Origin: Bacteroidales bacterium | GTDB lineage: Bacteria; Bacteroidota; Bacteroidia; Bacteroidales; Bacteroidaceae | DNA length: 62,601 bases | Assembly: GCA_030528885.1 (NCBI GenBank) | Contig: JAUMXY010000009.1 | Location: 1-62,601 of the forward strand | Reading direction: 5' to 3' | Shown: positions 5,279 through 45,546 of the stretch, one piece after another | Position numbering within the stretch: position 1 is the stretch's first letter | Layout: each line of letters begins with the position of its first letter | The notes under the pieces: generated by a model | What the model was told of the DNA's origin: nothing | Database searches by the model: none | Seen by the model: the letters and a program-made list of their open reading frames with translations, nothing else | Position numbers and translations under genes: made by a program

Positions 5279-5650
5279 ACGTGAGTTTGACGTAAGTATT
5301 ACGCAATAATCCTGTTTTTGTCTATGATTTCTATATTCATTTCTGGCTTCTTGGGCATCAAGTTGTAGGCAATAAGCCCAGCGATCAGGTTGGTGGCGAA
5401 GTTGTCGATAGAACGATGCCCGGACGGCATGGACGATTGCGGCGCTGCTTGCATGGAGTGTCAACAAAATGTTTTTTCAGGTCTGGAGTGAAATATTTGC
5501 AGAATTCATTGAGAATGCAGAAAATTTCTATTAAATTTTCAGTTGTCATAGGAGTGAGTATTGCTTGTATCTGTTTGTATTTCATCTTTAAAGATACGAA
5601 AAATACTTCCTTCTACAACTTTTAAGCACTTTTCTTACGTCGACTCACGT
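5279..5650 (-). mobile_element. Internally deleted IS982-family element with both ends
   Basis: Both tips read inward as ACGTGAGT (5279 on the plus strand, 5650 on the minus strand). From the 5650 side the minus strand encodes a transposase N-terminus starting at 5585 (MKYKQIQAIL, then ENLIEIFCILNEFCKYF), as in IS982 family members. After about 60 residues it jumps, out of frame, to a transposase C-terminus (HRSIDNFATNLIAGLIAYNL, then MPKKPEMNIEIIDKNRIIA and a stop at about 5304). Most of the catalytic part is therefore deleted, leaving about 372 bp. No clear target duplication is visible. Such a derivative could still be moved by an intact transposase elsewhere; that is inference. Confidence 0.75.
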
Positions 5651-5698
5651 TAAAAAAGGCTTATTCTTGTGTGGAGGGGAAGGTTGGGGACTTGCCGC

Positions 5699-22312: not shown

Positions 22313-22447
22313 GCGAGCACTCGCAAATGGGAAGGTTGCGCAGAGAAGGGCGTTAGGAAAGGCTTGTATGATGTATATGACCCTGCTGGACTCGACAAAT
22401 CTGAGCGACTTCTTATTGTAGAAATATTTGGTGTATAATCTTCAATA

Positions 22448-22874
22448 AACGTGAGTTCGATATAACAAAGCTATGTTTTTTGTAGTGCCTCGCAAAGCGA
22501 CTCCTTATATCGAACTGACGTTTTAGATAACGTGTCGTACCCGAGGGGTGCGCTTTTTGTGCCCTTTTTTCTCCAAAATTCCAAATCGTTGATACTCAGA
22601 CATGCCGCCCGTGTCGGAAATAATAGGCACAGGGTGTTCGTGTTATTATGCACACGGTGTCTGAAACCTTGTCTGCACGGTGTGCGTTTGCAGCCACTTG
22701 CCCAGCCCTCCTCAAAAAGAAAAGAGGCACAAGGTGAAAATGCCCTGTGCCTCCATGCTGAAGTGTCAGTGCCTGACAAGTGTCGTGAACGTTTGGAAAG
22801 GTGAGTTCGATACGACAAAAATAAGTTTATTGTAGTGCCTCTACGAGGCGGAATATTCATATCGAACTGACGTT
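22448..22874 (+). repeat. Interspersed composite repeat, copy A (complete)
   Basis: Two palindromic ~75-bp units (22448-22522 and 22801-22874) flank a ~280-bp core. The left unit runs from AACGTGAGTTCGATATAA to TTATATCGAACTGACGTT, its inverted complement with one mismatch. The flanks show TCAATAA at 22442-22448 and again at 22874-22880, a likely 7-bp target duplication. The tips match those of the IS982-family remnants. Open frames in the core exist on both strands and look incidental. Copies B and C lie at 33296 and 45273. I read it as a non-autonomous mobile element. Confidence 0.8.
22625..22778 (+). other. Folded core of copy A
   Basis: AGGCACAGGG (22625-22634) pairs perfectly with CCCTGTGCCT (22743-22752). 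The same 3' arm can instead pair locally with GAGGCACA (22724-22731). TGTCAG-TGC-CTGACA at 22764-22778 is a separate hairpin. All arms are kept in the three repeat copies. Whether RNA is made from it cannot be seen. Confidence 0.5.
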
Positions 22875-22934
22875 CAATAAGAAGGAAAGGGTGAGTTTTT
22901 GAGTTTTTTAAGTTGTTGCAGTTCTGGAAAAAGG

Positions 22935-33027: not shown

Positions 33028-33240
33028 ACGTGAGTTCGATGTAAGAAAAGTGTCCTCAAAGTTGTAGGAGTGAATTTTTCATATCTTTACAGATGAAATA
33101 CAAACGGATACAAACCATAGCCACTCCTAAGACAACGCAAATTTAATAGAAACTTTCTGCATTCTCGACGAATTCTGCAAATATTTCACTTCAGAGTTGA
33201 AAAAAACATCTTGTTGTACTTGTGCCGGACAAACATTGTT
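33028..33240 (+). mobile_element. IS982-family remnant (left end and start of transposase)
   Basis: It begins with ACGTGAGTTCGATGTAAG and has an ATG at 33093 followed by MKYKRIQTI, nearly the same as the transposase start at 5585. A one-base shift then breaks the frame; in the shifted frame NLIETFCILDEFCKYF is readable. After about 33210 homology ends. A matching right end may be TCATATCGAACTTACGT at 33725-33741, which would make the composite repeat B an internal insertion. Confidence 0.7.
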
Positions 33241-33295
33241 TTGCGATGTAAGTTCTGTATGGTTGTTTCACCTCTCTTTTTGTATCTCAAAACAG

Positions 33296-33720
33296 GTAGG
33301 TTCGATATGACAAAGATTTGTTTTTTTTGTAGTGCCTCGCAAAGCGACTCCTTATATCGAACTGACGTTTTAGATAACGTGTCGTACCCGAGGGGTGCGC
33401 TTTTTGTGCCCTTTTTTCTCCAAAATTCCAAATCGTTGATACTCAGACATGCCGCCCGTGTCGGAAATAATAGGCACAGGGTGTTCGTGTTATTATGCAC
33501 ACGGTGTCTGAAACCTTGTCCGCGCGGTGTGCGTTTGCAGCCACTTGCCCAGCCCTCCTCAAAAAGAAAAGGGGCACAAGGTGAAAATGCCCTGTGCCTC
33601 CATGCTGAAGTGTCAGTGTCTGACAAGTGTCGTGAATGTTTGGAAAGGCGAGTTCGACATGACAAAATATGTTTTTTGTCGTGCCTCTACGAGGCAGAAT
33701 CTTTATATCGAATTTCCGTC
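33296..33720 (+). repeat. Interspersed composite repeat, copy B
   Basis: Nearly identical to copy A over its length, including the left palindromic unit (33296-33375, with a decayed outer tip), the core starting with the GTACCCGAGGGGTGCGC word at 33384-33400, and the right unit (33650-33720). Most differences to copy A are transitions. It lies inside or next to the IS982 remnant on the same strand. Confidence 0.8.
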
Positions 33721-45272: not shown

Positions 45273-45546
45273 ACGTCAGTTCGATATAAAGATTCTGCCT
45301 CGTAGAGGCACTGCAAAAACCATATTTTTGTCATATCGAACTCGCCTTTCCAAACATCCACGACACTTGTCAGATGCTGACACTTCAGCACGGAGGCACA
45401 GGGCATTTTCATCTTGTGCCTCTTTTCTTTTTGAGGAGGGCTGGGCAAGTGGCTGCAAACGCACACCGTGCAGACAAGGTTTCAGACACCGTGTGCATAA
45501 TAACACGAACACCCTGTGCCTATTATTTCCGACACGGGCGGCATGT
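45273..45546 (-). repeat. Interspersed composite repeat, copy C (inverted, truncated)
   Basis: Relative to copies A and B it is inverted and keeps the right palindromic unit (45273-45347) and most of the core up to ATGCCGCCCGTG. The left unit and the first ~80 bases of the core are missing. The core hairpins are intact; the loop of the TGTCAG/CTGACA hairpin (45368-45382) is changed to CAT. Confidence 0.78.

Follow-up and report, generated by a model that had tools for sequence, protein, structure and literature searches.

A probable composite MITE with IS982-type ends and a constant non-coding core in a Bacteroidales genome

How a 425-bp non-coding segment that appears to lack a transposase of its own came to be dispersed through the genome of a gut-dwelling Bacteroidales bacterium is the question raised by a locus within the 62,601-nucleotide stretch of DNA analysed here (the window), which represents contig C37 of a host assembly of 2.62 Mb (73 contigs, ~89% complete). 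We consider it probable (roughly 0.8) that this unit is a composite MITE, which was founded once and then multiplied by an IS982-family transposase supplied in trans.

Direct reading of the sequence showed that the unit, designated copy A (22449-22873), is non-coding and is flanked on either side by TCAATAA, and that its two palindromes (73 and 75 bp) surround a core of 277 bp (Table 1), as a preliminary description of the window had proposed. The left palindrome, which reads ACGTGAGTTCGATAT...ATATCGAACTGACGT, is complete at both its ends in this copy, and the core is not one block, as it includes a GC-rich REP-like palindrome. The tip motif ACGTNAGTTCGATAT (allowing up to three mismatches) was matched 21 times in the window, compared with 3.67 +/- 1.79 times in shuffled sequences, with none of 100 shuffles reaching the observed number. 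The same description had assigned two further copies to the window, and these were indeed shown to share the core of copy A: copy B is 99% identical to it over 300 bases, and copy C, encoded on the opposite strand, is 93% identical to copy A and 94% to copy B. The boundaries of copy B required correction, however, and its degenerate tips are not accompanied by a duplication discernible by eye. Copy C is inverted, as had been stated, yet incomplete at the left, where the palindrome and the beginning of the core are absent, so that no duplication can be read for this copy.

Table 1. Positions of the composite unit, its parts and related features in the window
Feature	Position	Strand	Remarks
Degenerate IS982 element	5279-5651	-	L089 transposase matched by two fragments (78% and 60% identity)
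Left target duplication TCAATAA	22442-22448	.	7 bp; direct reading and duplication scoring
Left IS982-type mini-palindrome	22449-22521	+	73 bp; tips ACGTGAGTTCGATAT / ACGTCAGTTCGATAT
Core	22522-22798		277 bp; between the two palindromes of copy A
REP-like GC-rich palindrome remnant	22536-22552	+	With the CTTTTT after it, a terminator-like site on the + strand
Core segment	22600-22753	.	154 bp; whole in 31 of 33 listed matches touching the segment
Least diverged block of the unit	22600-22700		Within core segment 22600-22753
Hairpin and T-run	22723-22754	-	Terminator-like, - strand
Right IS982-type mini-palindrome	22799-22873	+	75 bp; inner tip degenerate (AGGTGAGTTCG), outer tip intact
Right target duplication TCAATAA	22874-22880	.	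7 bp; direct reading and duplication scoring
IS982 left-end remnant adjoining copy B	33028-33211	+	26-residue transposase match, 58%
Copy B	33294-33719	+	Complete; both outer tips degenerate; by eye no target duplication
Copy C	45273-45546	-	Without left palindrome and without start of core

Among the 49 matches listed for the host genome, 33 touch the core segment 22600-22753 and 31 of these hold it whole, the two incomplete ones being a match that holds part of the segment (C55:27358) and another that lies where a contig ends. Palindromes or short pieces make up the other 16 matches. As 40 of 127 candidates were scored, the number of copies is a lower bound, and the host genome is thus populated by at least 31 whole-core copies. 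The core was found in two of 61 genomes (up to 11 candidates scored per genome), i.e. the host and its sister species G018, with a third genome (G033) displaying core-like matches of 51 and 41 bases. When the search was extended across the order, the host itself was the only one of 295 genomes with the core, based on two candidates scored per genome and on listed rows that did not include G018. A 22-base core pattern produced three exact matches in genome contigs, all in MAG RGIG5573 (sheep colon), and none in viral contigs, and comparison of copy A with plasmids gave no match. Host copy L004 and L031 of G018 were shown to have an identical duplication and site, and to align over 2.9 kb at 95.6%; the alignment of L114 with L017 extends over 457 bp (93%). 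L113 (G018) and L024 (host) have 482 bp in common at 90%, with differing flanks; these two (L113:1438-1915 and L024:1299-1769) are of a variant form, in which another insertion appears to be nested within the left palindrome.

Target duplications were scored by script at both outer tips of 12 host copies. Exact 7-bp duplications were identified in five of these (L001, L004, L006, L008 and L012) and partial ones in L007 (6/7) and L014 (5/7), with the other five copies matching at three positions or fewer (including L002, which was scored at tips not its own), so that six of the 12 are without even a 6-of-7 duplication. No exact duplication of 4, 5, 6, 8, 9 or 10 bp was observed in the same 12 copies, and a control in which left flanks were paired with the right flanks of other copies yielded one exact duplication in 132 pairings and four with at least 6/7. 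The duplications are mostly A+T-rich, and their location outside the entire unit in five of the 12 copies indicates that the whole unit moved as one, in agreement with the preliminary description. The unit therefore exhibits features of a MITE, namely a length of 425 bp, inverted tips at both ends, duplication on insertion and two longest ORFs that match nothing in Pfam, the last of these being consistent with the earlier claim that it moves without a transposase of its own. Flanks forming an inverted instead of a direct repeat, which lengthens the hairpin, were encountered at L010 and L238 (unit or mini-palindrome), with flank pairs CTGATTA/TAATCAA and CTTTCAT/ATGAAAG, respectively.

Matches to PF13612 were obtained in 13 of 37 genomes searched, and three loci of sister species (L087, L089 and L090) were shown to represent IS982-family elements of 1024, 1035 and 1051 bp, each bounded on both sides by ACGTGAGTTCG tips. 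For L087 and L089, the encoded proteins matched NCBIfam NF033520 (transpos_IS982) at 1e-83 and 9.5e-80, respectively, far above the cut-off, and L090 was assigned by its PF13612 match. The first 11 tip bases of the unit are common to all three elements at both ends, which bears out the tips having been called IS982-like, and beyond the tips the palindromes of the unit are, by eye, unlike IS982 ends. L089 and L090 are flanked by the 7-bp duplications TAACTTA and TAAGATA, respectively (the contig ends at L087, hence no duplication was read there), and the unit thus corresponds to IS982 elements of sister species in both its tips and the length of its duplications.

The host assembly was shown to contain a single PF13612 match, L056, which belongs to the same IS982 family and has different tips: this gene (L056:1357-2340; C14:70315-70743, - strand; 327 aa) has the ends ACCTGTTG... 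on both sides. The L089 transposase gave four short matches in the host, three of which are located in the window (5302-5424, 5424-5549 and 33134-33211) and one at C24:31172-31324. The last, located just downstream of unit L015, is a piece of an IS982 transposase gene with 45% identity and two stops. An intact IS982 element with matching ends, which the preliminary description had put forward as a check, was not encountered among the 73 contigs, where L056 and the four short remnants were found instead; because the assembly is ~89% complete, such an element may be missing from it.

Sites lacking the unit were sought by joining the flanks of four copies and comparing them with 36 relatives, and by doing the same for three further copies in 20 relatives; neither search produced a match across the junction, and a clean empty site was thus not found among these genomes. 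At the places in G018 corresponding to L006 and L008, the neighbouring genes align and the gap between them does not. Upstream of the gene which in the host (G000) adjoins unit L008, G018 carries a different GC-rich palindrome (GTGTGCCCCACAGCG...; L149, C12). The unit at L003 (C56:25207-25654, - strand) begins within the stop codon of the conserved gene on its left, the unit's first base supplying the last A of the TAA. In all six relatives examined this gene ends one codon earlier, with no unit within the 160 bases shown and a right side that is not alignable.

For the composite MITE, we propose that a non-coding passenger was enclosed, on a single occasion, by two IS982-type mini-palindromes of ~73 bp. 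An IS982-family transposase, presumably supplied in trans, would recognise the outermost tips ACGT[GC]AGTTCGATATAA, move the entire segment and leave 7-bp duplications. Use of the outer tips only is suggested by the right inner tip, which is degenerate in all 21 rows that retain it. The right core junction, common to 21 of the 23 rows shown, likewise favours this reading. Copies would then decay through loss of palindromes, and would persist chiefly between convergent genes, probably because they do least harm there.

The same features may be read differently, in that the unit could be a single long MITE with palindromic sub-terminal regions rather than two MITEs and a passenger. Such a structure would accommodate the right core junction, which reads G[GA][CT]GAGT in 21 of the 23 rows shown (L022 and L024, the exceptions, having lost the palindrome), as well as the degeneracy of the right inner tip, the duplications observed at the outer tips and the solo palindromes displayed from the host, for which no duplication of their own is evident by eye. 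However, the ~73-bp palindrome is present in the host genome apart from the unit and, in a search with up to 11 candidates scored per genome, was matched without a full core in six other species of the genus (G002, G003, G012, G014, G017 and G026), so that the ends also occur independently of the core. Moreover, the left palindrome, complete at both ends in copy A, is by eye inverted in L013, L024 and L109 of the host and in L113 of G018. Solo palindromes and duplications outside the outermost ends are the properties of a composite MITE, with the reservation of the degenerate right inner tip and of solo palindromes showing no duplication; a single long element is considered rather unlikely. 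Spread via recombination or inside longer duplications is very improbable: L015 and L021 have more than 150 bp of duplicated right flank in common, but this explanation is contradicted for the five copies with exact whole-unit duplications, the flanks of which differ by eye, and the copies are accordingly not confined to segmental duplications.

A further set of explanations concerns the core. Most probably it is a strongly folding passenger, with opposite-facing terminator-like hairpins (one per strand), and it may stop transcription arriving from either side. That it represents a selected functional module (a structured RNA or bidirectional terminator) which hitched a ride is possible, if doubtful. 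The lowest-divergence 101-column window of the unit, 22600-22700, exhibits 3.7% divergence compared with 7.9% over the unit (eight full-length host copies), a value as low being reached in 34 of 2000 column permutations. Folding was assessed for 24 of the 34 cores aligned, after removal of ten whose ends were incomplete or non-homologous, and the consensus fold obtained z-scores of -3.07 on the + strand and -0.45 on the - strand relative to column shuffles, with single-sequence values of -3.76 and -2.29, respectively. Retention of the whole segment 22600-22753 in 31 of the 33 matches touching it, many of them without ends, also favours a functional core, as does the location of copies between convergent genes. 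The latter was observed for 17 of the 28 copies with a gene called on both sides (31 host copies examined; seven tandem and four divergent), compared with convergent gaps making up 20% of the intergenic length (397 kb of host genome without the listed units). The associated binomial p of about 3e-6 assumes independent copies, an assumption violated by L015 and L021, and relies on neighbours called by a crude longest-ORF script rather than a gene finder. Three of nine solo palindromes with both neighbours called are located between convergent genes, a set too small, and partly too fragmentary, to serve as a contrast.

Against a functional module, covariation is weak (three two-sided pairs, with 31 of 500 shuffles giving as many), and the wobble changes that favour the + strand in the RNAalifold structure (19 versus 8 pairs) are balanced (15:14) or only slightly skewed (21:15) in two Watson-Crick-only structures. 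The full core is, with up to 11 candidates scored per genome, limited to two species, and placement mostly between convergent genes is usual for such repeats, an enrichment of this kind being known for the ordinary parasitic repeats BOX, RUP and SPRITE of pneumococcus (PMC3049150). It is unlikely that the passenger is a structured RNA or two-way terminator that is selected after its ends decay and acts as a mobile insulator between convergent genes. That the core encodes a small protein is extremely improbable: three of the six frames of 22600-22753 are stop-free in 24 of 24 copies, but variable sites are spread evenly across codon positions (16, 13 and 14) and the two ORFs tested have no Pfam match, and the core does not look protein-coding. 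Rfam returned no hit at the gathering threshold over the window; a Ysr224 match in a relaxed search of 22400-22920 was discarded as being at chance level (15.2 bits, E 1.2).

The GC-rich palindrome of the core (GTACCCGAGGGGTGCGCC...GGCGCACCCCTCGGGTAC) is mostly deleted in copy A and spans ~60 bp in some other copies. It is related to a REP-like family with 49 pattern matches in the host genome, some of which fall inside composite units, and, among 21 genomes searched, 12 matches in G002, ten in G003 and one in G011; the reversed pattern, used as a control, was matched in none. A relative of the REP-like GGACCCGAGGGGTACGGTGCAT family is thus a module of the composite unit. GGACCCGAGGGGTACGGTGCAT itself occurs letter for letter 14 times in the host list, often as paired palindromes (e.g. 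L221:7676-7728, L227:8317 and L230:13898-13950).

The preliminary description had regarded composite MITEs as uncommon. As such they are known, since TIME-COMP and IMU (integron mobilization unit) are composites bounded by Tn3-derived MITEs (PMC13367494), but a literature search by title, in which subscription journals were thinly covered, found none bounded by IS982-type ends. According to that paper, TIME-COMP and IMU resemble the unit in that two non-autonomous mini-elements carry intervening DNA, with the transposase acting in trans and the duplication located outside the outermost repeats; they differ in having Tn3-type ends with duplications of 5 (sometimes 6) bp, and, as treated in that paper, resistance genes as cargo in place of a constant non-coding core present in at least 31 copies (PMC13367494). 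The unit is not a TIME-COMP proper, as its tips match IS982 elements rather than the Tn3 family and its duplications measure 7 bp rather than 5-6 bp. By analogy of organisation, TIME-COMP is its closest functional counterpart.

Cardinium and Porphyromonas gingivalis, the host of BrickBuilt, are both members of the Bacteroidota. MITECca01/02 of Cardinium are IS982-derived MITEs with 169 copies, and are thus comparable to the unit in combining IS982 ends with high copy number; in the accessible part of PMC9769881, they are simple MITEs of ~240 bp that descend from a resident IS982 still present in intact form, and a passenger between two MITEs, unlike in the unit, is not described there. BrickBuilt is likewise an intergenic MITE with a special interior, which, in contrast to the unit, is a minisatellite of 23-nt repeats, and its duplication length varies from copy to copy (PMC4596501). 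BOX, RUP, SPRITE and Correia elements are similarly small interspersed repeats, some of them modular or terminator-like (PMC3049150), but BOX consists of tandem modules and Correia elements have 26-bp repeat boundaries, neither being bounded by two complete MITEs. This comparison is one of descriptions, with no sequence relation to the unit seen.

Composite MITEs (TIME-COMP and IMU) and IS982 MITEs (Cardinium) are therefore already known, and what appears to be new is a multicopy, IS982-bounded composite MITE with a constant non-coding passenger, a modest variation on bacterial mini-transposons. With it, mobilisation of DNA between two MITEs comes to include IS982-type ends and a non-coding passenger present in at least 31 copies in one genome. 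If the core is active, this would represent a regulatory cassette dispersed by the transposition machinery of another element.
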